From the NCBI RefSeq assembly GCF_021172065.1, contig NZ_CP087880.1, positions 310,001 to 374,000 on the forward strand: a stretch of DNA of 64,000 nt, written 5' to 3'. This stretch comes from Pseudocitrobacter corydidari (GTDB taxonomy: Bacteria > Pseudomonadota > Gammaproteobacteria > Enterobacterales > Enterobacteriaceae). Below, in pieces: positions 4,098 through 59,973 of the stretch (its first letter is position 1; every line of letters starts with the position of its first letter). Position numbers and translations under genes: made by a program. Under the pieces are notes generated by a model that saw nothing but the letters and a program-made list of their open reading frames with translations, searched no databases and had not been told where the DNA came from.

Positions 4098-4186
4098 ACA
4101 AGCTCTCTATTCTGAACCTCTCCTCCCCGAAAAAGGCATTGCATGTTATGCCATGCGCCGTGGGGCTACGTCAGCGAGTGTTCAAA

Positions 4187-5326: not shown

Positions 5327-5327
5327 G

Positions 5328-6311
5328 ATGTTTGATGTTACGCAGATAAAAAAAGTGTCGGTGGTCATTCCGGTCTACAACGAGCAGGAGAGTTTGCCGG
5401 AATTAATTCGCCGAACTGATGCGGCCTGCGCCTTACTGCATCGCGACTATGAAATCCTGTTGGTGGACGACGGCAGCAGCGATAACTCTGCCCGCATGCT
5501 GTGCGACGCGGCGGACATGCCGGGCAGCCATGTGGTGGCGGTGCTGCTTAACCGTAACTACGGGCAGCACTCCGCCATTATGGCCGGTTTCAGCCATGTG
5601 ACGGGCGATCTGATTATTACCCTGGACGCTGATTTGCAGAACCCGCCGGAAGAGATCCCCCGGCTGGTCGAAAAAGCCGAAGAGGGCTATGACGTGGTGG
5701 GGACGGTGCGGCAAAACCGCCAGGACACGCTCTTTCGCAAAACCGCGTCAAAAATGATTAACCGCCTGATCCAGCGTACCACCGGCAAAGCGATGGGCGA
5801 CTACGGCTGCATGCTGCGCGCCTATCGCCGCCACATTGTCGATGCGATGCTCAACTGTCACGAGCGCAGCACTTTTATTCCCATTCTGGCGAACACCTTT
5901 GCCCGGCGGGCGATTGAGATCCCGGTGCATCATGCCGAGCGCGAGTTTGGCGATTCGAAATACAGCTTTATGCGGCTTATCAACCTGATGTACGACCTGG
6001 TGACCTGCCTGACGACGACGCCGCTGCGTCTGTTGAGCGTCGTGGGCAGCGTGATTGCGCTACTGGGATTCGGCTTCTCTGTGCTGCTTGTGCTGCTGCG
6101 CCTGATGTTTGGCCCGCAATGGGCGGCGGAAGGGGTCTTTATGCTCTTTGCCGTGCTGTTCATGTTTATTGGCGCGCAGTTTGTCGGCATGGGGCTGTTG
6201 GGTGAATACATTGGCCGCATTTACAACGATGTCCGCGCCCGCCCTCGTTATTTTATTCAACGCGTTATACGTCAGCCTGAAACGGCAACAGATGAGGAAA
6301 ATCAGCCATGA
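5328..6311 (+). CDS. arnC: Undecaprenyl-phosphate 4-deoxy-4-formamido-L-arabinose transferase
   Basis: ArnC is a GT2 glycosyltransferase that moves formylated L-Ara4N from UDP to undecaprenyl phosphate on the inner membrane. The N-terminal half has the GT-A fold motifs [28 protein letters not shown] and [14 protein letters not shown] (DxD-type metal site). The C-terminal half has two membrane helices (around residues 235-260 and 270-295). The frame opens at 5274, but the start at 5328 ([13 protein letters not shown]) matches E. coli ArnC and follows the arnB stop by one base, with AGGA upstream. Length is 327 residues. It overlaps arnA by four bases (ATGA), showing translational coupling. Confidence 0.96.
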
Positions 6312-8293: not shown

Positions 8294-9192
8294 AAAAAGT
8301 CGGCTTACGCATTGATGTCGATACCTTCAGAGGAACCCGTCACGGGGTTCCTCAACTGCTTTCTGTACTTGCGCGACACAGCGTGCGGGCCAGCTTCTTT
8401 TTTAGCGTCGGGCCTGACAACATGGGCAGGCACCTCTGGCGGCTGGTGAAACCTCAATTCCTGTGGAAGATGCTGCGCTCTCGCGCGGCCTCGCTGTACG
8501 GCTGGGATATTTTACTGGCAGGAACCGCCTGGCCCGGACGTGAAATTGGCGCAGGTAATGAAGCGATAATACGTGAATCAGCGGCTTTTCACGAAGTGGG
8601 GCTACATGCGTGGGATCATCATGCCTGGCAGGCCCGCAGTGGGCGCTGGGGCAACAAAAGGCTGGTCCAGGAGATTGGGCGCGGGTTAGTTGAGCTGGAG
8701 CGCATTCTCGGGGCCGCGGTATCGTGCTCGGCGGTGGCGGGCTGGCGGTCTGATAGCCGCGTTGTGACGGCCAAGGAACCGTTTAATTTTCTCTATAACA
8801 GCGACTGTCGCGGTCATCGTCCTTTCCGTCCACGGCTTGAAAATGGCACGCTCGGGACGGTGCAGATCCCGGTAACACTTCCGACCTGGGATGAAGTAGT
8901 TGGGCGCGAGGTGAGCGCGGATGCGTTCAACGATTATCTGATGAAACGCATTCAACAGGATAAGGGCGTGCCGGTTTATACCATTCATGCCGAAGTGGAA
9001 GGCATTGCCTTCGCCGCGCAGTTTGATGCGTTATTAACACTCGCGCGTGAAAACAACATCCACTTTTGCCCCCTGAGCCAGCTTCTGCCCGATGACATCA
9101 GCAGGCTGCCGGTGGGGAGTATTGAACGCGGTGAAATTGCCGGTCGGGAAGGCTGGTTAGGTGTGGAACATATTATGGAATCGTCTCTATGA
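8290..9192 (+). CDS. arnD: 4-deoxy-4-formamido-L-arabinose-phosphoundecaprenol deformylase
   Basis: ArnD belongs to the NodB/polysaccharide deacetylase (CE4) family. It removes the formyl group from undecaprenyl-phosphate-L-Ara4FN, making transfer to lipid A irreversible. The metal-binding motif [11 protein letters not shown] is at the N-terminus (D9, D11), and the second motif [10 protein letters not shown] is near residue 100. Length is 300 residues, as in the family. It acts on a lipid-linked substrate at the cytoplasmic face of the inner membrane. It overlaps arnA and arnT by four bases each. Confidence 0.96.
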
Positions 9193-10835
9193 AGCCTCGT
9201 TTTTACGCCGCGCTACTGGCGTGCTTGTACGCGCTTTACTATCTCATTCCGCTAAATGGTCGGTTGCTCTGGCAGCCGGATGAAACGCGCTATGCGGAAA
9301 TCAGCCGCGAGATGCTGGCATCGGGTAACTGGGCGGTACCGCATTTTCTGGGGTTACGTTATTTCGAAAAACCGGTTGCCGGATACTGGATCAACAATAT
9401 CGGGCAGTGGTTATTTGGTCACAACAACTTCGCTGTTCGCTTTGGCGGCGTGTTGTCGATAACGCTCACCGGCCTGCTGGTGGCGTGGATGGCCTGGATG
9501 CTGTGGCGCGATAAACGTATTGCAATCCTTTCCGCAGTCATCTTCCTGACTATGTTTCTGGTTTATGGCATCGGCACCTACGCCGTGCTGGACCCGATGA
9601 TCACCCTGTGGCTGGTGCTGGGCATGTGCGGTTTCTGGTATGGCGCTAACGCGCGCATTCGTGCGGAAAAAATCGGTGGTTATCTGCTGCTGGGTTTTGC
9701 CTGCGGCATGGGTGTGATGACCAAAGGATTTCTGGCGCTGGCGGTACCGGTATTAGGCGTCCTGCCGTGGGTTATCGCGGAAAAACGCTGGCGGGAAGTG
9801 CTGACCTGGGGCTGGCTCTCTATCGCGGTTTGCATATTAACGGTACTGCCCTGGGGGTTAACCATCGCCTCTCGCGAACCGGATTTCTGGCGCTATTTCT
9901 TCTGGGTGGAGCATATCCAGCGCTTCGCGCGCAGCGATGCCCAGCATAAAGCGCCCTTCTGGTATTACGTGCCGTTTGTTATCGCCGGGTGTTTGCCGTG
10001 GCTGGCGTTGCTGCCGGGCGCGCTGAAGCAGGGGTGGCGAGGGCGTAAAACCGAGAAAGGGCTTTTGTATCTGTTGGGCTGGGTGGTGATGCCGTTTCTG
10101 TTTTTCAGCATCGCCAAAGGGAAACTGCCCACCTACATTTTGCCTTGCTTCGCACCGCTGGCGATTTTGATAGCGCGTTATGTGCGTGACGCCACGCCCT
10201 TGGTTATGAGGGCTAACGGCATCATCAACCTGGCGGTTGGTGTCTGCGGCGCGCTTGCGGCGTTTCTTGTCTCTCCCTGGGGATGGATGAAACATCCCAT
10301 CTGGCCCTACATTGAGCTTTATAAAAGCATGCTGGCGCTGGTGGCGTTTGGTTTTTGGGCATTGATGGGATGGATGTCATTGAAAAATGGGCGACAGGGA
10401 ACACTGCTGGCCGCCTGTTGTCCGTTGCTGCTGGCTCTACTGTGCGGTTACGCGATTCCTGACCGGGTTGTCGCCAGCAAGCAGCCGCAGTTTATGATTG
10501 ATATTCTGAGTGAAGATCTGCAACCCAGCCGATATGTGTTATCCAACAACGTCGGGCTGGCAGCAGGGTTAGCGTGGGAGCTGAAACGCGCGGATATTCT
10601 GCTTTACGGTGGAAGAGGCGAGTTGCGCTATGGGCTTGGCTATTCGGATGCTAAAGATCGTTTTATCCCTCGTGAAGCGTTCAATGACTGGCTGGCGGCG
10701 CATCGCCAGCAGGGGAGGATATCTCTGGTGTTGCAGGTTAATAGTGGGCAAACCGTGGAGGATTTCGACCTGCCTAAAGCGGATAACGTCTACGTAATGC
10801 CACGCATTATTTATCTGGAGTATCTCCCACAGTGA
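9189..10835 (+). CDS. arnT: Lipid A L-Ara4N transferase (GT83)
   Basis: ArnT is the integral-membrane glycosyltransferase that moves L-Ara4N from undecaprenyl phosphate to the lipid A phosphates on the periplasmic side. This lowers surface charge and gives polymyxin resistance. The N-terminal PMT-like signature [16 protein letters not shown] is present in the first periplasmic loop. It is followed by [20 protein letters not shown] and roughly a dozen hydrophobic segments, then a soluble C-terminal domain from about residue 430. Its 548 residues match the E. coli length closely. It shares four bases with arnE, whose GTG start overlaps the arnT stop. Confidence 0.96.
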
Positions 10836-11158
10836 TAACGATCGTGCTGCTGTTACTGGCAAGCCTGTTGAGCAGTGCCGGGCAGCTGTGTCAGAAACAG
10901 GCCGCGCATCGCGCAGATAAAAAACGGCTGGTGCTCTGGCTGGCGCTTGCCGTCGGGATGCTCGGCGCCGGAATGCTGCTCTGGCTGGTGGTGCTGCAAC
11001 GCGTGCCGGTGAGCCTCGCGTATCCCATGCTAAGCCTGAATTTTGTCTGGGTGACGCTGGCGGCAAAGTTTATCTGGCGCGAAACGGTGACCATGCGGCA
11101 CTGGATAGGCATTGCATTGATTATTCTCGGTATTCTGTTGCTGGGAGGGAATGCGTGA
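10832..11158 (+). CDS. arnE: L-Ara4N-phosphoundecaprenol flippase subunit ArnE
   Basis: This 108-residue protein has the EmrE-like small multidrug resistance fold with four predicted membrane helices. It includes the typical helix-2/3 boundary [17 protein letters not shown]. With ArnF it forms the heterodimer that flips undecaprenyl-phosphate-L-Ara4N to the periplasmic face. It uses a GTG start that overlaps the arnT TGA, and its own stop overlaps the arnF start (TGATG). The GQLCQKQA segment in helix 1 is a family feature. Confidence 0.94.
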
Positions 11159-11538
11159 TGGGGGTTATCTGGGCATTATTGAGCGTGGTTATCGTCAGCA
11201 CATCCCAGCTGGCGCTGCGCTATGCCATGGTGCAACTGCCGCCTGTGGCGTCCCTGCGGCTGTTTTGCAACCATCTTCTGACACTCCAGCCAGGAACGTT
11301 GCCGCTGGTGGCTGGGCTGGTGGGGTATCTTGTATCAATGATCTGCTGGTTTTTAGCTTTGCAGCGGCTGCCTCTTTCCCGTGCCTATGCGCTGATGAGC
11401 CTGAGCTATGTGCTGGTATGGGCGGCGGCGCTAGTGTTACCCGGATGGCATGAATCTTTCTCATGGCTCTCCTTTGCCGGGGTGATGAGTTTGTTTGTCG
11501 GCGTGTTGTTGATATTTTCCCCCGGCCCCAGGGCGTGA
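11158..11538 (+). CDS. arnF: L-Ara4N-phosphoundecaprenol flippase subunit ArnF
   Basis: The product is the second SMR-type flippase subunit, about 126 residues with four membrane helices and the matching motif LPLSRAYALMSLSYVLVW. The ATG at 11158 (MGVIW) lies in the TGATG overlap with arnE and matches the E. coli N-terminus MGL. An in-frame GTG at 11155 would add one residue. It is the last gene of the arn operon; BIME repeats follow directly after the stop. No pmrD or menE follows as in some relatives. Confidence 0.92.
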   Translation: MGVIWALLSVVIVSTSQLALRYAMVQLPPVASLRLFCNHLLTLQPGTLPLVAGLVGYLVSMICWFLALQRLPLSRAYALMSLSYVLVWAAALVLPGWHESFSWLSFAGVMSLFVGVLLIFSPGPRA

Positions 11539-11558
11539 CCCTGGTGACGGGTAAGTCG

Positions 11559-11875
11559 GTAGGCCTGATAAGCGTAGCGCCATCAGGCAGTGTGCCGTGA
11601 ATTGCCGGGAGGCGGCTACGCCTTGCCCGGCCTACGGTTCGGTGTTGCTATCGGGGATTTTTTCGGCGGTAGGCCTGATAAGCGTAGCGCCATCAGGCAG
11701 TGTGCGCGTGAATTGCCGGGAGGCGGCTACGCCTTGCCCGGCCTACGGTTCGGTGTTGCTATCGGGGATTTTTTCGGCGGTAGGCCTGATAAGCGTAGCG
11801 CCATCAGGCAGTGTGCCGTGAATTGCCGGAGGCGGCTACGCCTTGCCCGGCCTACGGTTTGGTGTTGCCATCGAA
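11559..11875. repeat. Tandem BIME, three units of about 110 bp
   Basis: Units begin GTAGGCCTGATAAGCG at 11559, 11669 and 11780, so the spacing is 110 and 111 bp. The extra base in unit 2 is in GTGTGCGCGTG versus GTGTGCCGTG. Each unit contains one REP (GCCTGATAAGCGTAGCGCCATCAGGC), a short spacer, and an inverted REP (GCCGGGAGGCGGCTACGCC...), then GGTGTTGCTATCGG and a T-rich stretch. Units 1 and 2 are nearly identical. The third runs into the 3' end of the next, convergent gene and encodes its last residues. It fills the gap between arnF and the MFS gene. Confidence 0.93.
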
Positions 11876-13221
11876 CGATGTTTCATCGGAATGAAGGCAA
11901 TCACTATCGCGCCGAGCACGAGGAATGCGGCGACCATATAGATTCCGGCGTTGAAACTACCGGTGATATCTTTCATCCAGCCCATCAGCAGTGGCCCCAG
12001 TGCCGCGCCGGTCATCCCGGTAGCGTTAATCACCGCAATCCCCAGCGCGCGCGCCTGAATTGAGATGGATTGATCCGGCGTGGTCCAGAAAATCACCATC
12101 GCGGCAAATGCCCCGGCGGATGCCATCACGATACCGCTGAATTGCAGCATCGGGTTGCTACTGGTTGCCGTCAGTATCCAGCCTGCGGCGGCAAAAAGAT
12201 AAGGCAGCAGCGTGTGGATTTTTCGCTCATTCAACCGGTCGGAACGCTTACTCCACCACACCATGCCAACAATAGTGCAGACCTGTGGAATGGCGCTGAG
12301 TAATCCAATGGTGATGTTATTACTCTCCTGATTAAAACTGCGCAGAATAAGCGGTGTCCAGACGCTTAATGCACTCAGGGTATTGGTCAGGCAAAAATAC
12401 GCCAGCGTGTAGAGCATAATGACCGGCGTAAATAACTCGCGCAGCATACTGCGCTGCGACACCATTGCGCTGCTGATCCCCCGTTGTGATTGTTGAACCG
12501 CGCGTTTATCGGCTTCCAGCATTTCATTCAGACAGGCTTTATCATCGTCGGTCAGCCATTTCGCTTTCGCCGGGGAATCATCCAGCCAGAACCAGACCAC
12601 CAGGCCTAATAATACGGAGGGGAAACCTTCCAGTAAAAATAACCACTGCCACCCCTTCAGGTTTAATAAGCCATCCATATTTAAAATATAGCCTGACGCC
12701 AGCGAACCTAACGCCATGGTTACCGGCATCGCTATCATAAACAAGGCGTTAGCGCGGGCGCGATACTGCGACGGGAACCAGTAGGTTAAATAGAGCAGCA
12801 GCCCTGGCAGGAAGCCCGCCTCGGCGATCCCAACCAGCATTCGCAGTACATACAGGCTATTTGGCCCGGTGGCGAACATGGTCGCCGTCGAGGCAATTCC
12901 CCATACCACCATCAGCACCGCAATCCAGCGTCGGGCACCGACAATCCCTAACATAATATTGCTGGGGATCCCGCAAATCACATACATCACATAAAACAGG
13001 GTGGTTGCCAGACCAAACATGGTGCTGGTTAAACCTAAATCTTTGCCCATCGTTAAACCGGCAAAACCGATATTAATGCGATCGAGGTAAGAGAAGACAA
13101 ATAAAATAAATAAGAAAACAATTAATCGGCGGAATAACTTTTTTATCACCGCTTGTTGTCGCGGGTCCAGTGTATCCTGCGTATCGGAAGGCGGCGATAA
13201 TACGCTCGAAGAATCATTCAT
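11836..13221 (-). CDS. MFS transporter, anion:cation symporter (ACS) family
   Basis: A 12-helix MFS carrier with the ACS-type start of helix 1, FVFSYLDRINIGFAGLTMGKDLGL, and the helix-4/5 segment RMLVGIAEAGFLPGLLLYLTYWFP. Members take up small carboxylates such as tartrate, galactonate, phthalate or hydroxyphenylacetate. The substrate cannot be read from sequence. The open frame extends to 13353, but the Met at 13221 (MNDSSSV) has a GAG element upstream and gives a normal 461 residues. It is divergent from iacR and may belong to the same catabolic locus, for instance as a carrier for indole-3-acetate or a related acid (inference). The last codons (NRRPGKA) and the stop lie in REP DNA. Confidence 0.85.
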   Translation of the reverse strand: MNDSSSVLSPPSDTQDTLDPRQQAVIKKLFRRLIVFLFILFVFSYLDRINIGFAGLTMGKDLGLTSTMFGLATTLFYVMYVICGIPSNIMLGIVGARRWIAVLMVVWGIASTATMFATGPNSLYVLRMLVGIAEAGFLPGLLLYLTYWFPSQYRARANALFMIAMPVTMALGSLASGYILNMDGLLNLKGWQWLFLLEGFPSVLLGLVVWFWLDDSPAKAKWLTDDDKACLNEMLEADKRAVQQSQRGISSAMVSQRSMLRELFTPVIMLYTLAYFCLTNTLSALSVWTPLILRSFNQESNNITIGLLSAIPQVCTIVGMVWWSKRSDRLNERKIHTLLPYLFAAAGWILTATSSNPMLQFSGIVMASAGAFAAMVIFWTTPDQSISIQARALGIAVINATGMTGAALGPLLMGWMKDITGSFNAGIYMVAAFLVLGAIVIAFIPMKHRSMATPNRRPGKA

Positions 13222-13397
13222 GTCGGGCTCCACATTGCAATGTAATATTATTTTGTTAGCAGGCGAATATTTATCATGCTCAGAATGTTTTATTGACAGA
13301 GGCCATCCGAACACGTGCGCTAACGTATAGGTAACAGCCTGATAAGGTGTCAATGGAATCCGTAAAAAATGAGACGGAATTGTTATCTGTGTGGCGT

Positions 13398-13518: not shown

Positions 13519-13992
13519 ATGAGTGCAATCAAAAAAACAGCGGATGTGAAGAGCGCGGATGCGGCTTTTCATCGTGAAGAGTTCCCGTTCTACTGGATTG
13601 TTAACGTCTATGCGCGCTACACCCAGGTGATGGAAGTGACGTTGAAAAAGGTGCAGCTCGACGTTTCGCGCTTTCGGGTGATGATGATTACCCATCAGTA
13701 CGGCAAGGCCAGCATCTCGCAAATTTCTGAATATGCGATGGCGAAAATGCCGACCGTCACCAAAATTGTTGGCCGCCTGCGTGACGATGGGATGGTGACC
13801 ACCGCCAGCAGCGAACAGGATGCCAGGGTGACGGAGGTGATGCTCACGCCTGCCGGAAAGGCGAAAATTGAAGAAGCGCATCGCCTGGCGCAGAAAGTTT
13901 TCGAAAAAGGGTTCAAGGGAATGACGCCCGCGCAGGTGGAAAAAATGAACCTGTCGCTGTCGAAAGTGCTGGGTAACCTCAACGAACTGTAG
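13519..13992 (+). CDS. iacR: MarR-family regulator, IacR-like
   Basis: A 157-residue winged-helix protein of the MarR family. The recognition region is ISQISEYAMAKMPTVTKIVGRLRDDGMVTTASSEQDARVTEVMLTP (written here only in part as KMPTVTKIVGRL and EQDARVTEVMLT), with the D-x-R wing signature in QDARVTE. N- and C-terminal helices would form the dimer. It is adjacent to and codirectional with the iac genes, as IacR is in Pseudomonas and Acinetobacter iac clusters, where it represses until auxin or a derivative binds. That role here is inferred from context. AAGGA precedes the start. A 332-bp gap separates it from iacH, so it probably has its own transcript. Confidence 0.85.
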   Translation: MSAIKKTADVKSADAAFHREEFPFYWIVNVYARYTQVMEVTLKKVQLDVSRFRVMMITHQYGKASISQISEYAMAKMPTVTKIVGRLRDDGMVTTASSEQDARVTEVMLTPAGKAKIEEAHRLAQKVFEKGFKGMTPAQVEKMNLSLSKVLGNLNEL

Positions 13993-14199: not shown

Positions 14200-14227
14200 A
14201 CGTGAAATATTACTTGAATATTCACGT
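14200..14227. promoter_or_regulatory. Long inverted repeat before iacH, candidate IacR operator
   Basis: ACGTGAAATATT (14200-14211) is mirrored by AATATTCACGT (14217-14227), differing only by one extra A in the left arm. The centre is five bases. AT-rich palindromes of this size are typical MarR-family operators. It lies about 100 bp before the iacH start, in an AT-rich stretch that should hold the main iac promoter, though I could not place convincing -35/-10 boxes. This is the only strong dyad in the gap 13993-14324. Confidence 0.55.
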
Positions 14228-14324
14228 AAATATCTCATGATTGATTTATCGCCATTCAGGGCAAAAAAGCAGCGATGACTGCTCGCCTGGATGTGATTCA
14301 CTTTTTCTGGTCAAGGTATCAATC

Positions 14325-15446
14325 ATGAAGCCAGTTTTTGAGAGCAATGGTTATGTCGAGCAGTTTACGCTCGGTTCAGGCGAGCTGCGGTTCGCCGTCA
14401 AAGATACGCTGGATATCGCCGGTCACCCGACCCGCGCCGGATGCCCGGCGCTGGCCGATGCGCCGAAAGCGAAGCAGCATGCCCGCATCGTCAAGGTGCT
14501 GCTCAACAGCGGCTGCCAGCTGACGGGCAAAACCACCCTGCACGAACTGGCGTTTGGCGTTACCGGGATCAACCCGTGGAGCGGCACGCCCGTTAATCCT
14601 CAATACCCTACGCTGATTCCCGGCGGTTCGTCGAGCGGCTCCGCAACCGTCGTCGCCAATGGCGATGTCGATTTCGCCCTCGGTACCGACACCGGTGGTT
14701 CGGTCCGAATGCCCGCTGCCTGCTGCGGTGTGCTGGGGCTGAAACCGGGCTATGGCGTGCTCAGCCGCCAGGGTGTATTACCTGCCTACAGCTCACTCGA
14801 TTGCGTCGGTATTTTTGCCCGCGAACCGCGTATTCTGCGCGAAGTGCTGGCCCGCGTGGCGTTACCGGTTGATGCACCGCTGGCGTCTCTGCCCTCGATG
14901 GGCTTTATCTTTGCGGCTCAGCCGGAGATTGACGCCCTGCTGGTGGATGCGCTGGAAGCGTTGGGCATCGCCGCAAACTGCGTGACGCTGCCGCTGTTGG
15001 GCGAAGCGCATCGCGCCGGGCTAACCATCATCAACCGCGAAAACTGGCTGGCATTTAACGCATTGCTGGCAAGCCACGCGGTTTCCCCGGACGTTGCCAG
15101 CCGTATTCAGGCCGGAGAATCCATCACCAGCGAACAGCTCGCCTGCGCGGAAAACGTGCGCGCGCATTTCACCGCTCAGGTGAATGATCTGCTGGAAGAG
15201 ACACCACTGCTGGCATTGGCGACGCTACCGGAACTGCCGCCGACGCTGGAAGAGGCGGAAGATCCGCTTAGCGTGGTGAATCTGACGCGGCTGGTGCGGC
15301 CCTTCAACCTCAGCGGTCATCCGGCGCTCTCGCTGCCGATGGGCGAACTTCAGGGCCGACCCGTCGCGCTACAACTGGTGGCGGGCTTTGGCGAAGAGGG
15401 GCTTCTCGTCCAGGCCGCCGAATGGCTGATACGCCGCCGCCTCTGA
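14325..15446 (+). CDS. iacH: Amidase-family protein of auxin degradation, IacH
   Basis: This 373-residue protein has the amidase signature fold. The catalytic Lys is K26 in FAVKDTLDIAGHPTRAG, the cis-Ser region is PGGSSSGS (residues 99-106), and the nucleophile is S126 in TDTGGSVRMPA. It is shorter than GatA-type amidases, as IacH proteins are. In iac clusters IacH is thought to act on a late ring-opened or lactam-like intermediate on the way from indole-3-acetate to catechol; its exact reaction is not settled. The open frame reaches back to 14241, but the ATG at 14325 has AAGG upstream and matches the family start. It is the first gene of the iac transcript. Confidence 0.85.
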   Translation: MKPVFESNGYVEQFTLGSGELRFAVKDTLDIAGHPTRAGCPALADAPKAKQHARIVKVLLNSGCQLTGKTTLHELAFGVTGINPWSGTPVNPQYPTLIPGGSSSGSATVVANGDVDFALGTDTGGSVRMPAACCGVLGLKPGYGVLSRQGVLPAYSSLDCVGIFAREPRILREVLARVALPVDAPLASLPSMGFIFAAQPEIDALLVDALEALGIAANCVTLPLLGEAHRAGLTIINRENWLAFNALLASHAVSPDVASRIQAGESITSEQLACAENVRAHFTAQVNDLLEETPLLALATLPELPPTLEEAEDPLSVVNLTRLVRPFNLSGHPALSLPMGELQGRPVALQLVAGFGEEGLLVQAAEWLIRRRL

Positions 15447-15551
15447 CGTTTATCGCGTAATAAAACCGTTGAACCGACCACTCAATGCCATTCAGGCGTT
15501 GCGGCATCGTGCACCTTTTTGCCGCCCGCCCACGTTATTCGGGAGTCAGCT

Positions 15552-16679
15552 ATGTCCGTCGTACACGTCCGTGAAGAGCTTGTTCCGTTATTGACCGAAG
15601 TGACCGCGCGCAGCGCCGATTTCGAGCGCCAGCGCCATGTTTCAGACGACATCATCAGCCGCTTTAAACAGGTAGGCGTCTACCGTGCGCTGGTGCCGAA
15701 AATCTACGGCGGGGATGAGTGTTCTCCGGCGCAGTTTTGTGAACTGATTGAGCAAATCGCCACCGCAGACGGCTCGGCAGGCTGGGTCGCCAGTTTTGGT
15801 ATGAGCCCGTTTTATCTCGGCGCGCTGCCGCCGGATACCCTGAAAGAACTCTATCGCAACGGCCCCGATGTGGTGTTTGCCGGGGGCATCTATCCGACGC
15901 ACAACGCGCAACTGGCCGATGGCGGCTATCGCGTAAGCGGACGCTGGTGCTTTGCCAGCGGCAGTATGGGCGCATCGGTGTTTGGCGTCGGCATTCAACC
16001 GGAAGGGGAGAACGCGCTTCCGCGCATGGCGGTGCTGCCGCGCGAAAGCATTCATATCGACCCGGTGTGGGATACGGTCGGGCTGGCGGGAACCGGCAGC
16101 CATGATTTGCTGGTGGATGACGCGTATGTACCGCAGGAGTGGACATTTATTCGCGGCGGGGCGCTGAATCTGGAAGGCCCGCTGTATCGCTATCCGGTGT
16201 TATCGCTCGCCACGCAGGTGCTCTCCGTTGTGGCGCTGGGTGTGGCCCGCGCGGCACTGAATGAAATCTATCAGATTGCCCATCGTCAGCAGTCTGTCAC
16301 CGGCGCGCCGCGCCTGGCCGACCGACCGCAGGCGCAGATGCAAATTGCCCGTTGTGAAGCAGAACTCCGCTCGGCGCGCGCCTGGTTTTACGAGGCTATT
16401 GATGACGTCTGGCAGCGTCTGCTGGTCGGTAATGAGCCGGGCCAGCAGCAGGTCAATGCGCTGCGTCTTTCCTCTACGCACGTCACCCGCGTGGCGGCAG
16501 ACGTTGCCCGTCAGGCGCTGGCGCTTAACGGGATGGGCGGCGTCACCATGACCAGCCCGCTCCAGCGTTATGTGCGCGACACGATGGTGATCACCCAACA
16601 TGCCTTTATGGGCGACCTCTCGTACCTGAACGCCGGTACGGTCTTTTTCGGCGGCAAACCGCTGCCGGGTTATCTCTGA
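15552..16679 (+). CDS. iacA: Indole-3-acetate flavin monooxygenase, IacA
   Basis: A 375-residue protein of the acyl-CoA dehydrogenase-like two-component flavin monooxygenase group (also containing HpaH, IifC and DszC). The N-terminal helical part, the middle beta domain (VSGRWCFASGSMGASVFGVG, and DTVGLAGTGSHDLLVDDAYVP) and the C-terminal four-helix domain (GMGGVTMTSPLQRYVRDT) are all present. IacA starts indole-ring oxidation of indole-3-acetate using reduced flavin from a partner reductase, here most likely IacG. The ATG at 15552 with GGGAG upstream is chosen over the longer frame from 15519. The 105-bp gap after iacH shows no clear terminator. Confidence 0.88.
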   Translation: MSVVHVREELVPLLTEVTARSADFERQRHVSDDIISRFKQVGVYRALVPKIYGGDECSPAQFCELIEQIATADGSAGWVASFGMSPFYLGALPPDTLKELYRNGPDVVFAGGIYPTHNAQLADGGYRVSGRWCFASGSMGASVFGVGIQPEGENALPRMAVLPRESIHIDPVWDTVGLAGTGSHDLLVDDAYVPQEWTFIRGGALNLEGPLYRYPVLSLATQVLSVVALGVARAALNEIYQIAHRQQSVTGAPRLADRPQAQMQIARCEAELRSARAWFYEAIDDVWQRLLVGNEPGQQQVNALRLSSTHVTRVAADVARQALALNGMGGVTMTSPLQRYVRDTMVITQHAFMGDLSYLNAGTVFFGGKPLPGYL

Positions 16680-16699
16680 ATTTCTGAAAGGAGCAACAA

Positions 16700-17050
16700 A
16701 TGAGCCAGAACACATTACGCGTGCTGTTTTGTATCGGTGTGAACCAGAACTTTTTCGATGCGACTCCGGCAGAAGCCAAACAGGTGTGGGGTGCATTCGG
16801 CGTGATGATGAAAGGCATGGAAGAGACGCCGGGCATCCGCGTCATCGGCAACATGGATGACGACCAGTTGATGGTCGGCCCCTCGACCACCGCACCGTGG
16901 ACCACCTACGTGCTGGCGGATGCCGACACCCTGGAAAGTGTTGCGGCGGTCTGCAACCTGTTCCGCACCACGCCGGTCGGTGAAAGCAAGTTGTGGAAGT
17001 ACTGCAAGATTGAAGCGCGCGTGGGCCGCGAACTGATTATTCAGAATTAA
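16700..17050 (+). CDS. iacB: Small iac cluster protein IacB
   Basis: The 116-residue cytoplasmic product corresponds in size and place to IacB of known iac clusters. It has a ferredoxin-like alpha/beta look (VLFCIGVNQNFFDATPAEAK, then TTYVLADADTLESVAAVCNLF), with no signal peptide or recognisable catalytic motif. Its role in auxin degradation is undefined; it could bind an intermediate. It follows iacA by 20 bp with AAAGGAG as ribosome binding site and precedes iacI by 10 bp. Confidence 0.82.
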   Translation: MSQNTLRVLFCIGVNQNFFDATPAEAKQVWGAFGVMMKGMEETPGIRVIGNMDDDQLMVGPSTTAPWTTYVLADADTLESVAAVCNLFRTTPVGESKLWKYCKIEARVGRELIIQN

Positions 17051-17060
17051 GGAGCGGGCG

Positions 17061-17573
17061 ATGAACTCACAGGATGCGCAGCGCTTGCAGCAGCTTGAAG
17101 ATCAGCAGGATGCGCGGGTATGCATCAGCAACTATATGCGCCTGTGCGACCAGCTTGAAACCCCGGCGACCGTGCGGGCGATTGGCGCGCTGTTTACCAC
17201 CAATGCCTGCTGGGAAGGCGTGGGCGAACCGTATGCCACACGCCTTGGCAGGCATGTCGGACGCAACGCCATTGAAAGCATGATGGCCGGTTACGTCAAA
17301 ACGCCCGCGCATTTTGCGATGAACGCCCATTTTCTGTGCTCGGAAGCCCTCATCCAGCAGCCGGATGGCCTGCTTTTCGGGCGCTGGCTGATGCTGCAAA
17401 CCTCCAGTTTTACCGCCGGAGGATCGCATCTCAATGCGGCGGAACTGAACGTGGAGTTTCGCCGCGAAGCCGGTGTGATGCGGATGCACCATTTCACGAC
17501 GCGCAATCTGTTCAGCAGGCCAGTGGATCACTGGCACGCCGCAGATGTGCTGCCTGTACCTGACAATAAATAG
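17061..17573 (+). CDS. iacI: SnoaL/NTF2-like protein IacI
   Basis: A 170-residue protein with the NTF2/SnoaL-like cone fold expected from IVSNYM-type helix 1 (VCISNYMRLCDQLETPATV), the segment FTTNACWEGVGEPYATRLGRHVGR, and C-terminal beta strands (LNVEFRREAGVMRMHHFTTRN). Relatives act as isomerases, dehydratases or dioxygenase beta-like subunits. In iac clusters it is IacI and lies next to the Rieske genes. Its reaction is not firmly known; it may process an intermediate after IacA. AAGGAGCGGGCG precedes the start, and iacC follows after 11 bp. Confidence 0.82.
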   Translation: MNSQDAQRLQQLEDQQDARVCISNYMRLCDQLETPATVRAIGALFTTNACWEGVGEPYATRLGRHVGRNAIESMMAGYVKTPAHFAMNAHFLCSEALIQQPDGLLFGRWLMLQTSSFTAGGSHLNAAELNVEFRREAGVMRMHHFTTRNLFSRPVDHWHAADVLPVPDNK

Positions 17574-17584
17574 AGAGTCGAGCG

Positions 17585-18886
17585 ATGCAGTGTGATAACC
17601 AGATCCCCGTAAAAAATATCGAAGCGAATGTTCCCGACTGCGCGGAAATCGCCGCGCTGGTGCAGTCTGACCGGGTGCATACCTCACTTTATAATTCCGA
17701 GACCCTGTTCAACCTTGAGCTGGACAGGATCTTCAGCAAAACCTGGGTATGGGTGGCGCATACCAGCGAAATTCCGGAAACCGGCAGTTTCAAAACCACC
17801 GAGATAGGCACACAGCCGGTTATTGTCGTGCGCGACCGCAAAGGCAACGTACACACGTTGCTCAACCGCTGCCGCCATCGCGCCGCCACCGTGTGCGAAC
17901 ACCGCACTGGCAAAACCAACAGTTTCGTTTGCCCGTATCACGGCTGGGGCTATGCCCTGGACGGCAGCCTGCGCGGCGTGCCGCACCCGGAAAGCTATGC
18001 CGATCAACTGGAAAAAGGCGAGCTGGGGCTGGTGTCGCTGCGCACCGAACAGTATGCCGGCATGATCTTCGCCACCTTTAATGAGCACATCGAACCGCTG
18101 GAAGATTTCCTCGGCGCCGCGAAAAAGTGGATGGATCTGTTTATGAAGCAGGGTGCGGGTTATCCGATTAAAACCGGCCCGGCGCACCGTTTCCGCTTCC
18201 CCGGCAACTGGAAGATCCAACTGGAAAATACCACCGATGGCTACCACTTCCCGGTCGTTCACCGCTCGTTTTTAAGTTCGGTCGATAAGCAGACCGAAGA
18301 GATGCTCAACTTCGTTGACGGCAGCGGCTACGTGGAAGATCTCGGCAACGGCCATAGCGTGATGGTGATGATCCCGGAACTGGTGGATCTGGAAGCCAAT
18401 CTCGATGCGCCTGTCCCGGAGCGCTTTATCGCGCTGGCCGACGAATTGCGTAAAGACCACGATGAAGATCAGGTGCGGCGTATTGTGCGTGCCGTCGGCG
18501 GTTCCGGCTTTAACCTCAACATTTTCCCCAATATTGCCTGCTCAATGGCGTTCTTCCGCGTGCTGCAACCCGTCTCGGTGAACGAAACCGAAATTCATCA
18601 TGCGGTGATCACCATGGACGGCGGCCCGGAAATTGCCAACCAGGCGCGCCTGCGTCTGCACGAGCATTTCCAGGGGCCGATGGGCTTCGGCACGCCGGAT
18701 GACTCCGAGGCGTGGGAGCGCGTGCAGCGCGGGGCAACGGCGGGCAACGACCTGTGGATCATGCTCAACCGCGGGCTGGCGGGCGAATACCGCAGCGATG
18801 ACGGCCTGCGCAGCGACGTGAGCGCTGAAACGGGGATGCGCGCGGCGTATCAACAGTGGAAAAAACTGATGACGGAGGCGGAATAA
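17585..18886 (+). CDS. iacC: Rieske ring-hydroxylating dioxygenase large subunit, IacC
   Basis: The 433-residue alpha subunit has the Rieske [2Fe-2S] ligands C96, H98 (NRCRHRA) and C116, H119 (CPYHGW). The catalytic domain has D218, H221 and H226 in DGYHFPVVHRSF. The third Fe ligand is probably an Asp in PDDSEAWE near residue 372. It belongs to the anthranilate/benzoate-type alpha3beta3 group. With IacD and the reductase IacF it should hydroxylate an oxidised indole-acetate intermediate on the way to catechol. Its stop overlaps the iacD start (TAATG), so alpha and beta are translationally coupled. Confidence 0.92.
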   Translation: MQCDNQIPVKNIEANVPDCAEIAALVQSDRVHTSLYNSETLFNLELDRIFSKTWVWVAHTSEIPETGSFKTTEIGTQPVIVVRDRKGNVHTLLNRCRHRAATVCEHRTGKTNSFVCPYHGWGYALDGSLRGVPHPESYADQLEKGELGLVSLRTEQYAGMIFATFNEHIEPLEDFLGAAKKWMDLFMKQGAGYPIKTGPAHRFRFPGNWKIQLENTTDGYHFPVVHRSFLSSVDKQTEEMLNFVDGSGYVEDLGNGHSVMVMIPELVDLEANLDAPVPERFIALADELRKDHDEDQVRRIVRAVGGSGFNLNIFPNIACSMAFFRVLQPVSVNETEIHHAVITMDGGPEIANQARLRLHEHFQGPMGFGTPDDSEAWERVQRGATAGNDLWIMLNRGLAGEYRSDDGLRSDVSAETGMRAAYQQWKKLMTEAE

Positions 18887-19365
18887 TGACGCCAGATACG
18901 GTTCTGATTTCCGCGATGGAAATTATCAATCTCGAAGGCGATTTGCTCGATCAGGGCGAGTTCAATGCCTGGCTGGAACTGTGGCAGCGCGATGGCCTGT
19001 ACATCGTGCCAATCGATCCACAGGAGACCGATTTCAAAAATACCCTCAACTACGCCTGCGACGATCACGAAATGCGCGAGCGTCGGGTGAAGCGCCTTTA
19101 CAGCGGTGAGTCTATCTCCACCACGCCGCGCGCCCGCACGTTGCGCACGCTCTCCCGCTTCCGTTTGCTGGCTGGCGAGGGGGACGACATCGTGGTGCGC
19201 GGCGCGCAGTCGCTGTGGGAACACCGCAAAGGCTACAGCCGACACTACGCGGCGGATATCACCTGGCACCTGCAACCGCAGGGCGACAAGTTGCTGATTA
19301 AGCAAAAGGTGATTCGTCTTATCAATAGCGACGATGTGCTGCACAGCATCGGCTACATCCTGTAA
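18886..19365 (+). CDS. iacD: Rieske dioxygenase small subunit, IacD
   Basis: The 159-residue product is a ring-hydroxylating dioxygenase beta subunit with the NTF2-like fold. The early part EGDLLDQGEFNAWLELWQRDGLYIVPID and the middle ERRVKRLYSGESISTTPRARTLRTLSRF region (given here in pieces: LDQGEFNAWLELW; TPRARTLRTLSRF) are typical. It is structural and sets the alpha3beta3 assembly with IacC. The ATG at 18886 overlaps the iacC TAA, and GGAGG lies upstream. iacE starts 10 bp after its stop. Confidence 0.9.
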   Translation: MTPDTVLISAMEIINLEGDLLDQGEFNAWLELWQRDGLYIVPIDPQETDFKNTLNYACDDHEMRERRVKRLYSGESISTTPRARTLRTLSRFRLLAGEGDDIVVRGAQSLWEHRKGYSRHYAADITWHLQPQGDKLLIKQKVIRLINSDDVLHSIGYIL

Positions 19366-19375
19366 GGAGCGCGTT

Positions 19376-20116
19376 ATGACGCAAACCGTATTAGTCACCG
19401 GCGCGGCCGCCGGGCTGGGCAACGTCATCGCCACGCATCTGTTGTCGCAGGGATATCAGGTGGTGCTCTCGGACGTGAGCCTGGCGCGCGCGCAACAGGC
19501 GGCGGACAAACTCGATAATGGCGCGGGCAATGTGCTGGCGCTGGCGCTGGATATCCGCCAGCCGCAGGCGTTTGAGAAGGCGCTACAGGCGATTGAAACC
19601 CGCTTCGGCAGCCTGGAGGTGCTGGTGAACAATGCCGCGCTGACGCTGGCGACACCGGTGATGGAAATTGATGTTGAAGAGTTCGACCAGGTGATTTCAA
19701 CCAATCTGCGCGGCACGTTTGTCGGCTGCCAGACGATTGGGCGCTACTTCGCGAAGAAAGGCTACGGGCGAATTATCAACCTGGCGTCGCTCGCCGGGCA
19801 GAACGGCGGCACGGCCTCCGGGGCGCACTATGCGGCATCGAAAGGCGGCATCCTGACGCTGACTAAAATCTTCGCCCGCGAGCTGGGGAAATCCGGCGTA
19901 ACGGTGAATGCCATCGCGCCGGGGCCGATGGATCTTCCGTCCGTTCACGCGCTGGTGCCGGAAGAGAAAATGGCCGGGCTGTTACAGATGATCCCGGTGG
20001 GTAAACTGGGCGATGCCGAGTTTATCGCTCAGGCCGTGGCGCTGCTGGCTTCACCGCAGGCGGCGTTTGTCACCGGGGCGACCTGGGACATCAACGGCGG
20101 TCTGTTCATGCGTTAA
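19376..20116 (+). CDS. iacE: Short-chain dehydrogenase/reductase, IacE
   Basis: A classical SDR of 246 residues. The cofactor motif is TGAAAGLG (residues 8-15), the NNAA element is at 85-88, and the catalytic triad is S138, Y152 and K156 (HYAASK). The acidic D33 after strand 2 suggests NAD+ rather than NADP+. In iac pathways IacE helps turn the IacA product into dioxindole-3-acetate. The frame opens at 19334, but the ATG at 19376 has AAGGAG upstream and gives the normal SDR start. It is spaced 10 bp from both neighbours. Confidence 0.88.
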   Translation: MTQTVLVTGAAAGLGNVIATHLLSQGYQVVLSDVSLARAQQAADKLDNGAGNVLALALDIRQPQAFEKALQAIETRFGSLEVLVNNAALTLATPVMEIDVEEFDQVISTNLRGTFVGCQTIGRYFAKKGYGRIINLASLAGQNGGTASGAHYAASKGGILTLTKIFARELGKSGVTVNAIAPGPMDLPSVHALVPEEKMAGLLQMIPVGKLGDAEFIAQAVALLASPQAAFVTGATWDINGGLFMR

Positions 20117-20125
20117 GGAGTTGCC

Positions 20126-21058
20126 ATGCTGACACTTCAGATTTTGAAACGCGAGCTTCAGGGGGATGTTGTTCTGCTGACGCTTGCCGATGCAACCGGC
20201 GCTGAACTGCCTGCGTTCACCGCCGGGGCGCACATCGACCTGCATCTGACTGACGATCTGGTGCGCCCATATTCGCTGTGCGGCGATCCGGCAGATCGCT
20301 ACTGCTATCAACTGGGCATTCTCAAAGATAGCCAGTCGAAAGGGGGATCGCTGGCGGCGCACGCGCTTCAGGAAGGTGAATCAGTGAAGGTGAGCCTGCC
20401 GCGCAACTTGTTTGCCCTGGATGAGGGCGCAGCGCACAGCCTATTGATCGGCGGCGGGATTGGCATCACGCCGATGTTGGCGATGGCGGCGGAGCTGCAC
20501 GCCGCCGGGCGCGTGTTTTCGCTGCATTACTGCGCCCGTTCGCGCCCGCAGGCGGCATTTGTTGCCGAACTGGAAAAAGCGCCGTGGGCGGATCGTGTAT
20601 GGCTGCATTTCAGCGATGAACAACGCATTGATTTGCCAGCGGTATTGAGTGATGTACCAGCTAACACCCATGTCTATGTTTGCGGCCCCACGCGGCTGAT
20701 GGAGGCGGTGAGCGAGCAGGCAAACGCCGCCGGTTATGCGGCTGAAAACGTCCATCAGGAGTGTTTCAGCGCGGAGGTTGAAGTGAGCGGAAAGGCGTTC
20801 GACGTGGTGGCCGCAACCAGCGGGATCACCGTGCGGGTGCTGGAAAACCAGACCATTGTCGAGGCGCTGGCGCAGGCCGGGTTGAAGGTGTGCGTCTCCT
20901 GTAAGCAGGGGATTTGCGGTAGTTGCCTGACAGATGTGATTGAGGGCGAGCCGGATCACCGCGACAGCTATCTGACAGACGAGGAGAAAGCCGATGGCGA
21001 CCAGATCCTGCTCTGTTGTTCCCGGGCGAAAAGCGCCCGTCTGATTATCGATCTCTGA
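20126..21058 (+). CDS. iacF: Rieske dioxygenase reductase, IacF
   Basis: The 310-residue reductase has the domain order FMN/FAD-binding (RPYSLCGDPADRY, near residue 50), NAD-binding (LLIGGGIGITPMLAMA, near 107) and C-terminal plant-type [2Fe-2S] ferredoxin (CVSCKQGICGSCLTDV with the last Cys in LLCCSRAKS). This is the phthalate dioxygenase reductase/VanB arrangement. It passes NADH electrons to the Rieske centre of IacC. All four cluster cysteines are present. GGAG precedes the ATG, and it lies nine bases after iacE. Confidence 0.9.
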   Translation: MLTLQILKRELQGDVVLLTLADATGAELPAFTAGAHIDLHLTDDLVRPYSLCGDPADRYCYQLGILKDSQSKGGSLAAHALQEGESVKVSLPRNLFALDEGAAHSLLIGGGIGITPMLAMAAELHAAGRVFSLHYCARSRPQAAFVAELEKAPWADRVWLHFSDEQRIDLPAVLSDVPANTHVYVCGPTRLMEAVSEQANAAGYAAENVHQECFSAEVEVSGKAFDVVAATSGITVRVLENQTIVEALAQAGLKVCVSCKQGICGSCLTDVIEGEPDHRDSYLTDEEKADGDQILLCCSRAKSARLIIDL

Positions 21059-21068
21059 GGATTTCAGC

Positions 21069-21569
21069 ATGAATTTGCAGACCGAGTTTCGTAATGCGAT
21101 GGCGCAACTGGGCAGCGCGGTGTCGGTGATCACCACCGATGGCCCGGCGGGGAAATTTGGCTTTACCGCCTCTGCCGTGTGTAGCGTCACGGATCAACCG
21201 CCGACCCTGCTGGTGTGTATGAACCGCAACTCTTTTGCCAATGCGCACTTCAAGCAAAACGGCGCACTGTGCGTGAACGTGCTTTCCGGCGCGCATCAGG
21301 AGTTATCGGGTATTTTCGCCAATGCGACCCTGCGTTCCGAAGAGCGTTTCGCTTACGACCGCTGGCAGGTGATGGCGAGCGGCGCGCCGGTACTCAGTTC
21401 CGCCGTCGCCAGCTTTGACTGCGTGATTGACGACTGCCATGAAGTGGGCAGCCACACGGTATTTTATTGCCAGGTGCAGGCGATTCGCATCAGCGAGCAG
21501 CCGCGCGGGCTGGTCTATTTTAACCGTCGTTACCATACGGTAGGCGGCGATATTGAGGTGAAAGCCTAA
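21069..21569 (+). CDS. iacG: NAD(P)H:flavin reductase, IacG
   Basis: The 166-residue protein is a HpaC/RutF-type flavin reductase (flavin_reduct domain). It includes GSAVSVITTDGPAGKFGFTASAVCSVT near the start, the NGALCVNVLS segment, and a C-terminal GLVYFNRRYHTVG. It should supply reduced flavin to the monooxygenase IacA as its small component. There is no signal peptide. It follows iacF by 10 bp and is followed 20 bp later by the transporter gene. Confidence 0.9.
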   Translation: MNLQTEFRNAMAQLGSAVSVITTDGPAGKFGFTASAVCSVTDQPPTLLVCMNRNSFANAHFKQNGALCVNVLSGAHQELSGIFANATLRSEERFAYDRWQVMASGAPVLSSAVASFDCVIDDCHEVGSHTVFYCQVQAIRISEQPRGLVYFNRRYHTVGGDIEVKA

Positions 21570-21589
21570 CCCATAGAGGAGCCTGGCTT

Positions 21590-22918
21590 ATGAGCAATAC
21601 CGCAGCAGCACCGCACGACCCAAAGCAAATGCGCAAACTGGTGATCGCCTCTGTTCTGGGCAATGCGCTGGAATGGTACGACTTCTTTCTCTATGGCACG
21701 GCGGCGGCGTTAGTCTTCGGCCCGCTCTTTTTTCCGGTCGGTGGCGACCCGCTACAGGGCACGCTGCTGGCGTTTTCCGGCTTTGCGGTCGGCTTCCTGG
21801 CGCGTCCACTCGGCGGGATTGCTTTCGGTCATTTAGGCGATCGCTACAGTCGTAAGATGACGTTAATTATGACGTTAACGCTGATGGGCGCGACAACCTT
21901 CGTCATCGGCCTGCTGCCGGTTTACAGCCAGATTGGTATCTGGGCGCCGATTTGTCTGATCACCCTGCGCTTTTTGCAGGGCGTGGCTTCGGGCGGTGAG
22001 TGGGGCGGCGGCGTGTTGATGCTGAGTGAAAATGCCCCGGTTTCAAGGCGCGGCTTCTTTACCGCCTGGAGCCAGATGGGCGTGGCTGGTGGGTTCGTGC
22101 TCTCGGCATTCGCTTTTTATCTGGTGCAGAAACTGCCGGAATCCGATTTTATGAGCTGGGGCTGGCGCGTGCCGTTCCTGCTGAGCCTGTTGATTTTTCT
22201 GGTCGGCGTTTATATCCGAAAAAACATTCGTGAAAGTGAGGCGTTTCGCCAGGCTACACCAGAAGAGAAACATGAAAAAATTCCGCTGGTCGTACTGCTG
22301 CGTGAGCATCCAAAAGCGCTGATGCAGGCCATTGCATTGCGCCTGCCTGAGAATGGCGCATCCTATATTTTCTTCACCTTTTCAGTGGTGTACGCCAAAC
22401 ATATTGGTATCTCCACAGACATCATCATCAGTGCGGTGACGTTGGCGATGGTGGTCGAGTTTTTCTCGATTCTGTTCTGGGGCGCGCTTTCCGATCGCAT
22501 CGGTTTGAAGCGTGTTTACTACATTGGTGTCATCGGCCTGCTGGTGATGGCCTTCCCGTTCTTCTGGCTACTTTCCAGTGGCGAATTCAGCGGGATCATG
22601 GTGGCGATGTTCCTCGGTCTGCCCGTCTGCCATGGGGCGATGACGGGGACGCAGCCGTGCATTATGAGCGATTTGTTTCCGGTGCGCGTGCGCTACTCCG
22701 GCCTGGCGCTGGGGCATGAAGTGGGATCTATCTTTTCCGGCGGGCTGGGGCCGATGCTCGCCGTCGCACTGTTAATCGAGTTTGACGCCGCCTGGCCGGT
22801 ATCGCTGCTGCTGATTGCCTATGCGCTACTGGCGTGGATTGCGTTGTGGAGCCTGCCTTCGCAGGAGACACCTGTCCTGAGTCAACCTACAAAAACCTTA
22901 CCCTACAATGAGGTCTAA
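21590..22918 (+). CDS. MFS metabolite:H+ symporter, likely indole-3-acetate uptake
   Basis: A 442-residue carrier of the MHS family (ShiA, KgtP and ProP relatives). It shows the family start ASVLGNALEWYDFFLYGTAAALVF, the loop 2-3 motif GHLGDRYSRK, and RFLQGVASGGEWGGG in helix 4, with 12 predicted helices. These carriers import organic acids with protons. Its position between iacG and catA, with short gaps (20 bp and 3 bp), makes indole-3-acetate or a related aromatic acid the likely substrate. That is inference from context. Confidence 0.85.
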   Translation: MSNTAAAPHDPKQMRKLVIASVLGNALEWYDFFLYGTAAALVFGPLFFPVGGDPLQGTLLAFSGFAVGFLARPLGGIAFGHLGDRYSRKMTLIMTLTLMGATTFVIGLLPVYSQIGIWAPICLITLRFLQGVASGGEWGGGVLMLSENAPVSRRGFFTAWSQMGVAGGFVLSAFAFYLVQKLPESDFMSWGWRVPFLLSLLIFLVGVYIRKNIRESEAFRQATPEEKHEKIPLVVLLREHPKALMQAIALRLPENGASYIFFTFSVVYAKHIGISTDIIISAVTLAMVVEFFSILFWGALSDRIGLKRVYYIGVIGLLVMAFPFFWLLSSGEFSGIMVAMFLGLPVCHGAMTGTQPCIMSDLFPVRVRYSGLALGHEVGSIFSGGLGPMLAVALLIEFDAAWPVSLLLIAYALLAWIALWSLPSQETPVLSQPTKTLPYNEV

Positions 22919-22921
22919 GCA

Positions 22922-23848
22922 ATGTCAGTGAATCCGGTTACTACATCAGAAGTGGAAAAATTACTCGCCGTCAGCAGCGGTTTTCTCTCTCAACAGGGGA
23001 ACGAACGCTTTAAGGAGATCATGCATCACCTGCTGGGCGATATCTGCCAGACCATTAAAAAATTTGATATCAGCGACGAAGAGTTCTGGCTGGCGGTGAA
23101 CTATCTCAACGAGCTGGGCGAGCGCAAAGAAGCGGCGCTGCTGGCGGCGGGGCTGGGGCTGGAGCACTACCTCGACATTCGCGCCGATGAAAAAGAGGCG
23201 GCGGCAGGCAATGAAACAGGCACCCCGCGCACCATCGAAGGGCCGCTGTACGTGGCGAACGCGCCGCTGAGTGAAGGTTTTGCCCGCATGGATGATGGTA
23301 AAGAGCAGGGTGAAATCATGTGGTTACAGGGTGTGGTGAGAGATAAGCAGGGGCGTCCGGTGGCGAATGCCGTTGTCGATATCTGGCACGCCAATACGCT
23401 CGGCGGTTACTCGTTCTTTGATCAATCTCAGAGCGAATACAACCTGCGCCGCCGCGTGCTGACCGACGCCAAGGGGCATTATGCGGTGCGCAGCATTGTG
23501 CCGTGCGGTTACGGCTGCCCACCGGATGGCCCGACGCAGAAACTGCTCAACGGTTTAGGCCGTCACGGCAACCGCCCGGCGCATATTCACTTCTTTGTCT
23601 CCGCGCCGGGTTATAAGCACCTGACTACGCAGATCAACCTCAATGGCGATGCGTACCTGTGGGATGACTTTGCTTTCGCCACCCGTGACGGGCTGATTGC
23701 TGACCCGGTGAAAGTGGACGACGAAGCCGTGGCCTACGAGCGTGGCATTCACCAGCCGCATACGGAAGTGAACTTTGATTTTACGCTGGTAGCGGCGACG
23801 CAGAGTGAAGAGGAAGCGCGCGGGAAGCGAATGCGCGTGAAAGAGTAA
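22922..23848 (+). CDS. catA: Catechol 1,2-dioxygenase
   Basis: A 308-residue intradiol dioxygenase with the N-terminal helical dimerisation domain (about 1-100) and the catalytic beta domain. The Fe(III) ligands are Y163 (GGYSFFD), Y197 (CGYGCPP), H221 and H223 (RPAHIHFF). TPRTIEGPLYVANAP is the family signature. It cleaves catechol, the end product of the iac pathway, to cis,cis-muconate. It starts three bases after the transporter stop, so it belongs to the iac transcript. No muconate cycloisomerase (catB) or muconolactone isomerase (catC) follows. It ends before a strong terminator. Confidence 0.93.
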   Translation: MSVNPVTTSEVEKLLAVSSGFLSQQGNERFKEIMHHLLGDICQTIKKFDISDEEFWLAVNYLNELGERKEAALLAAGLGLEHYLDIRADEKEAAAGNETGTPRTIEGPLYVANAPLSEGFARMDDGKEQGEIMWLQGVVRDKQGRPVANAVVDIWHANTLGGYSFFDQSQSEYNLRRRVLTDAKGHYAVRSIVPCGYGCPPDGPTQKLLNGLGRHGNRPAHIHFFVSAPGYKHLTTQINLNGDAYLWDDFAFATRDGLIADPVKVDDEAVAYERGIHQPHTEVNFDFTLVAATQSEEEARGKRMRVKE

Positions 23849-59939: not shown

Positions 59940-59973
59940 GCTTCTCATCACCGTTAAAGAAATCGCGGGCACC

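Follow-up and report, generated by a model that had tools for sequence, protein, structure and literature searches.

Gene clusters of the iac type, which serve the breakdown of the auxin indole-3-acetate (IAA), are already known in Enterobacter soli, Acinetobacter, Pseudomonas and other bacteria, and the cluster of Pseudocitrobacter corydidari described here adds another member. It lies within a 64,000-nucleotide stretch (the window), which comprises C1:310001–374000 of a single-contig genome of 5,015,040 bases. The closest characterised counterpart is found in E. soli ATCC BAA-2102, the deposited strain that we take to be LF7. The iac cluster is functional in E. soli LF7 (PMC11373566), where the locus is repressed by IacR and iacA is required for the conversion of IAA (PMC9613470). 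In Acinetobacter baumannii ATCC 19606 and A. lactucae NRRL B-41902, the content and order iacR-iacHABICDEFG are the same as in the window, and iac clusters are also present in Klebsiella pneumoniae and in Enterobacter species (PMC12502551). Pseudomonas putida 1290 has the same ten iac genes including iacR, but in the order iacABCDEFGRHI (PMC11373566). Another type of cluster, iad, found in Variovorax and Bradyrhizobium, shares with the window a Rieske pair and MarR control, but differs in its end product, anthranilate, and in its markers iadA and iadB, whereas the iac type is marked by iacA, iacB, and iacI (PMC9613470). Among the papers listed in literature searches combining this genus with IAA or iac, none mentions Pseudocitrobacter, a result too narrow in coverage to prove absence.

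The identity, order, and orthology of the genes, the conservation of an operator-like element in front of them, and the presence of further genes in trans are established below. By analogy with its relatives, from which the reactions, the substrate, the induction by IAA, and the single transcript are all derived, the cluster is very probably an inducible operon for the aerobic conversion of IAA through catechol to cis,cis-muconate. It is a real but ordinary iac cluster, the exception being that its tail of catechol genes is shortened.

Gene content and orthology of the cluster

The cluster occupies positions 14325–23848 on the forward strand and consists of eleven intact, closely spaced open reading frames (ORFs), iacHABICDEFG followed by the gene of an MHS-type transporter and by catA. 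Its outer coordinates are exact, corresponding to the ATG of iacH at 14325 and the end of catA at 23848. A complete cluster of this composition, with a MarR gene next to it, had been proposed in the preliminary description of this DNA, and both points are borne out by the intact ORFs and their family matches, as well as by iacR, the gene of a MarR-family repressor, located upstream at 13519–13992 (+). The same description presented the cluster as fused to uptake and catA, which is correct as adjacency but not as fusion, the ORFs being separate. The gap between iacH and iacA amounts to 105 nt and the later gaps, up to catA, range from −1 to 20 nt, a spacing from which one transcript for the eleven genes is plausible.

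The Pfam and NCBIfam profile matches agree with the gene types named for an iac cluster (percentages in this paragraph are identities to the E. soli ATCC BAA-2102 locus, L016, and all genes are on the forward strand). The first gene, iacH (14325–15446), encodes an amidase (PF01425, 219 bits; 70%) and is followed by iacA (15552–16679), which encodes an acyl-CoA-dehydrogenase-like flavoprotein assigned as the flavin-dependent IAA monooxygenase (87%). The small protein encoded by iacB (16700–17050; 87%) matched no Pfam or NCBIfam family, and iacI (17061–17573) encodes a SnoaL-like (SnoaL_4) protein (PF13577; 77%). The adjacent genes iacC (17585–18886; PF00355, PF00848; 92%) and iacD (18886–19365; PF00866; 84%), overlapping by one base, encode the alpha and beta subunits of a Rieske oxygenase. 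The Rieske cluster motif is present in IacC; a motif written ad hoc for its two-histidine iron site gave no match, although Pfam does detect the catalytic domain. Next come iacE (19376–20116), encoding a short-chain dehydrogenase (PF13561; 87%), iacF (20126–21058), encoding a ferredoxin/NAD(P) reductase (PF00111, PF00175; 77%), and iacG (21069–21569), encoding a flavin reductase (PF01613; 86%). The eleven genes end with that of the MHS-type metabolite/H+ symporter (21590–22918; TIGR00883 385.6 bits, below the cut-off of 443.45; 90%) and with catA (22922–23848), encoding catechol 1,2-dioxygenase (TIGR02439 439.5 bits, cut-off 392; 79%). All of the iac-type markers (iacA, iacB, iacI) are thus accompanied by the iacC–iacD pair, by iacE, iacF, iacG, and iacH, and by a MarR regulator of the IacR group (82%).

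In E. soli, the HpaX-type MFS gene (84%), iacR, iacHABICDEFG, and the MHS gene stand in the same order and on the same strands as in the window. The iac assignment offered in the preliminary description is strongly supported by the comparison with E. soli, which gave 70–92% identity from iacR to the MHS gene, with IacA and IacC at the 87% and 92% listed above. Judged by these sequence comparisons, the cluster in the window and a characterised iac cluster are orthologous.

The loci used for wider comparison were the best 80 of 304 confirmed (L004–L083). Thirty of them (L004–L033) form the enterobacterial set, chosen by label except for L011, labelled Chryseobacterium, which was included by similarity; a gene was counted as present only if a one-piece match covered at least half of the query. 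The complete set of iacR and nine iac genes, in the order HABICDEFG, is found in 27 of these 30 loci. The exceptions are L006, which starts just before iacA at a contig end, as well as L014 (iacH and iacC) and L026 (iacH), where the genes indicated fall below the coverage rule. An MHS gene stands behind iacG in 29 of the 30 loci (not in L027). Such orthology across enterobacterial loci excludes chance as the source of the gene order. This order had been described as that of Pseudomonas, Acinetobacter, and a few plant-associated enterobacteria; it does apply to Acinetobacter (PMC12502551) and to many Pseudomonas loci, but not to P. putida 1290, and the limitation to a few plant-associated enterobacteria fails, with loci found in Kluyvera, Buttiauxella, Leclercia, Lelliottia, Silvania, Raoultella, and others besides Pseudocitrobacter.

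The top matches of IacA among the named loci, each at 99%, belong to P. vendiensis, P. faecalis, and an uncultured Pseudocitrobacter, and the three named Pseudocitrobacter loci are 92–100% identical to the window across iacR to catA. When 343 genomes were sampled from the family, 17 of them, that of P. corydidari included, had IacA (E ≤ 1e-60); they belong to 9 of 154 genera, and the iac cluster is a minority trait in the family. The contig of L011 bears the label Chryseobacterium sp. 18061, yet its iac locus is enterobacterial (IacA 88%), and its assembly is probably mislabelled or contaminated.

Divergent from iacR is a gene encoding an HpaX-type MFS transporter (11836–13353, reverse strand; TIGR02332 744 bits, cut-off 615.4), the true start of which may be downstream of the TTG at 13353. 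It was missing from the preliminary description. No HpaX-like gene was found next to iacR in six of the enterobacterial loci (L006, L010, L028, L029, L030, and L032), but the other 24 of the 30 have one there, and this divergent gene is part of the conserved iac neighbourhood. Its product is a candidate for a second importer of aromatic acids or IAA.

IacR, its predicted operator and the substrate

The best PDB match of IacR is 7L19 (E 1.5e-79), followed by 7KUA (3e-41) and 7L1I (4.8e-19), all of them MarR proteins of the iac type. According to PMC11630574, 7L19 is the regulator from E. soli ATCC BAA-2102, 7KUA that from P. putida, and 7L1I that from A. baumannii; all three proteins bind IAA (PMC9613470). 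The E. soli locus L016 encodes the residues of 7L19 letter for letter, and the match to 7L1I is the sole sequence comparison with the two Acinetobacter clusters mentioned above. Tyr34 of IacR in the window aligns with Tyr44 of P. putida IacR, which contacts IAA, in a numbering that assumes a 24-residue tag in 7KUA.

These matches bear on the question of whether the cluster could instead be of the iad type, leading from IAA to anthranilate. Both types have a Rieske pair resembling iacC/D and usually also a MarR regulator (PMC9613470), features that would fit either. However, IacR matches the iad-type structures far more weakly (7KFO, 8.1e-7; 7KYM, 4.2e-5), iacA, iacB, and iacI, which mark the iac type, are all found here with catA behind them, and none of the ORFs at 11.8–24 kb was assigned to iadA or iadB, no search by those names having been made. 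An iad cluster is therefore extremely improbable.

Another indole compound might also be the main substrate and IAA a minor one; candidates are indole, skatole, indole-3-propionate, and plant indole acids, as the Iac enzymes of Caballeronia glathei were used on several indole derivatives (PMC7225977). We consider this very unlikely: among characterised relatives, the one closest across all the genes is an iac system that degrades IAA, IacR is orthologous to an IAA-binding, structure-solved regulator, and no gene for the later steps in the breakdown of IAA has been lost.

The spacer between iacR and iacH, 332 nt long, contains the imperfect palindrome TTACTTGAATATTCACGTAA (14210–14229), which is probably the operator of IacR, a prediction that draws on its conservation. 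Its core, TTACTTGAANNTTCA, is present in one copy in each of the 30 iacR–iacH spacers available (that of the window plus those of every enterobacterial locus, E. soli included, except L006, which has no spacer). Measured from the start of the core to the end of the spacer as extracted, the distance is 117–118 nt in 24 of them and 116–188 nt across all 30. Among the other 50 named loci (L034–L083), the core occurs only in L038, a Zoogloea locus. When the motif was written as TTACTTGAAWWTTCA (with W for N in its middle), the palindrome was the sole place in the 5.0-Mb genome with zero or one mismatch.

A wider IacR regulon is unsupported by the same search: genome-wide, the only hits with zero or one mismatch came from the palindrome, which was matched on either strand, and when two mismatches were allowed the sites were no commoner than for a backwards control (27 compared with 31).

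Two kinds of evidence weigh against the proposed inducible operon. In the iacR–iacH spacer, no sigma-70-like site came up in the promoter scan, which in the region as a whole returned three such sites compared with a mean of 6.8 in shuffled sequences. In addition, the steps from dioxindole-3-acetate (DOAA) to catechol are unsettled even in the model strains (PMC7225977). Terminator-like sites numbered 16, compared with 14.6 in shuffles, and as the scan gave nothing above shuffles, neither a promoter nor a terminator is claimed.

Proposed pathway and the fate of the catechol tail

In the systems studied so far, IacA and IacE yield DOAA, which is then converted to catechol by IacC, IacD, IacF, and possibly IacI (PMC9613470, PMC7225977); the role of IacH is uncertain, with release of ammonia having been suggested (PMC11373566). 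In the operon proposed here, IAA would enter through the MHS symporter, the HpaX-like transporter, or both, and its binding would release IacR from the palindrome in front of iacH. IacA, supplied with reduced flavin by IacG, would act with IacE and with the aid of IacB to convert IAA to DOAA, from which IacC–IacD with their reductase IacF, as well as IacI and IacH, would produce catechol. CatA would then open the ring to give cis,cis-muconate, to be processed in trans by CatBC, encoded beside the ben genes, PcaD, PcaIJ, and PcaF to succinyl-CoA and acetyl-CoA.

The genes for this lower part are found at two other places in the genome. Genes catB, catC, and a second catA, all above their family cut-offs, are located at C1:1254449–1256870, with the second catA 70% identical to that in the window. 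They are followed by a ben set extending to 1260607, in which BenD is above its cut-off, BenA is nearest to TIGR03229 (737.7, compared with a cut-off of 780.95), and the names benB and benC are based solely on position. Beside catBCA and ben lies a divergent gene of the IclR type, which at 279.4 falls just below the PcaR/PcaU cut-off of 284.75. A set of pcaI-J-F-B-D-C is present at C1:1205898–1210961, with a PcaR/PcaU-type gene above its cut-off nearby. Thus no step between catechol and the end products succinyl-CoA and acetyl-CoA is without a candidate gene. Because the missing steps are encoded at these loci, the cluster alone would reach cis,cis-muconate and the genome as a whole central metabolism. 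The claim that the cluster itself combines ring oxidation with ring cleavage stands in that catA provides the cleavage, whereas the next steps (catBC, pca) are encoded elsewhere.

The DNA behind the MHS gene, within each locus as extracted, divides the 30 enterobacterial loci into several classes. In nine of them (L012, L016, L017, L020–L024, L026) the tail reads pcaI-pcaJ-pcaD-catB-catC-catA, as in E. soli, in contrast to catA only in the window; catA is cut by the locus end in all nine, and is full-length in the six of their genomes that were searched. Another nine (L011, L013, L014, L015, L018, L019, L025, L031, L033) have catB-catC-catA, with catB of L014 appearing in three pieces. Three Buttiauxella loci carry catB and catA with no catC found between them (L006, 7.7–9.8 kb; L007 and L009, 17.4–19.6 kb), and the three Pseudocitrobacter loci (L004, L005, L008) have catA only, as does the window. 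None of these tail genes was found in the remaining six (L010, L027, L028, L029, L030, L032). Two of the Pseudocitrobacter loci have, between catA and gcd, a stretch of about 0.67 kb (L004, 18334–19000; L005, 18337–19018) with an ORF of 165–168 residues; this stretch is absent from the window and from L008.

Whole-genome searches for CatA and CatB covered 16 of the 30 genomes. Two copies of CatA (E ≤ 1e-60) are present only in the three Pseudocitrobacter and two Buttiauxella genomes, the other 11 having one each. CatB is found once in each Pseudocitrobacter genome (98–100% identical to the ben-side copy), twice in each of those of Buttiauxella, and once in each remaining genome; a contig end truncates the match in the genome of L008, and in that of L014 the match is partial. 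In an unrooted CatA tree of 23 sequences (FastTree), 15 iac-linked copies, including that of the window, are separated from the eight others with a support of 1.000, and because of this grouping catA of the window belongs to the iac lineage. Both catB and catC are missing beside it, and since the relatives carry longer tails, their loss from this locus, rather than their never having been gained, would be the simpler reading of the sequences.

A tail reduced in comparison with its relatives (pcaIJD-catBCA, catBCA, catB-catA, catA only) could also indicate an iac cluster in decay, in which catB and catC are gone and the pathway no longer works. This explanation overlaps in kind with that of a working operon, and the probabilities attached to the different explanations need not sum to one. 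Decay is nevertheless most improbable: the eleven ORFs are all intact, IacC is present at 99–100% identity in all four Pseudocitrobacter genomes examined, that of P. corydidari included, and the functions of catBC and pca are encoded elsewhere in the genome.

Beyond the working operon, we can offer only the tentative and rather doubtful suggestion that its catA serves as a relay as well as an enzyme, with muconate derived from IAA, or a product of it, switching on the catBCA/ben locus, perhaps via the IclR/PcaR-like regulator beside those genes. Two once-separate aromatic pathways would in this way become one regulatory chain, and a super-operon would have broken up from pcaIJD-catBCA through catBCA and catB-catA to catA, as permitted by the second catBCA set.

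Flanking DNA and significance

To the left of the iac locus, in the window as well as in L008, lies an arn region (window 3918–11880) with an ORF for UDP-4-amino-4-deoxy-L-arabinose aminotransferase at 4139–5326 and with arnD/T/F-like ORFs. P. vendiensis (L004) and P. faecalis (L005) lack the region at this position: there, the sites matching ~3.9 and 11.88 kb of the window are no more than 0.3 kb apart. A tandem array at its right-hand edge (11557–11873) contains 2.9 copies of a 111-bp unit with 97% matches, and another (2066–2312) contains 3.6 copies of a 69-bp unit with 92% matches; both resemble enterobacterial repetitive extragenic palindromic (REP) or bacterial interspersed mosaic (BIME) elements. 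A tRNA called by ARAGORN at 61108–61198, of undetermined type and with the four-base anticodon ggcc, is located inside an ORF (59938–61242) and is probably false.

The analysis places a complete, intact operon for auxin catabolism in a Pseudocitrobacter genome, and it identifies, as the probable operator of IacR, a short and highly conserved stretch of DNA, a prediction that can easily be tested. Among the genomes searched whole, a second catechol branch is present in the lineages whose iac-linked branch is without catC or catBC. If Acinetobacter is a guide (PMC12502551), bacteria with the cluster may be inhibited by 5-chloro-IAA when IAA is supplied.

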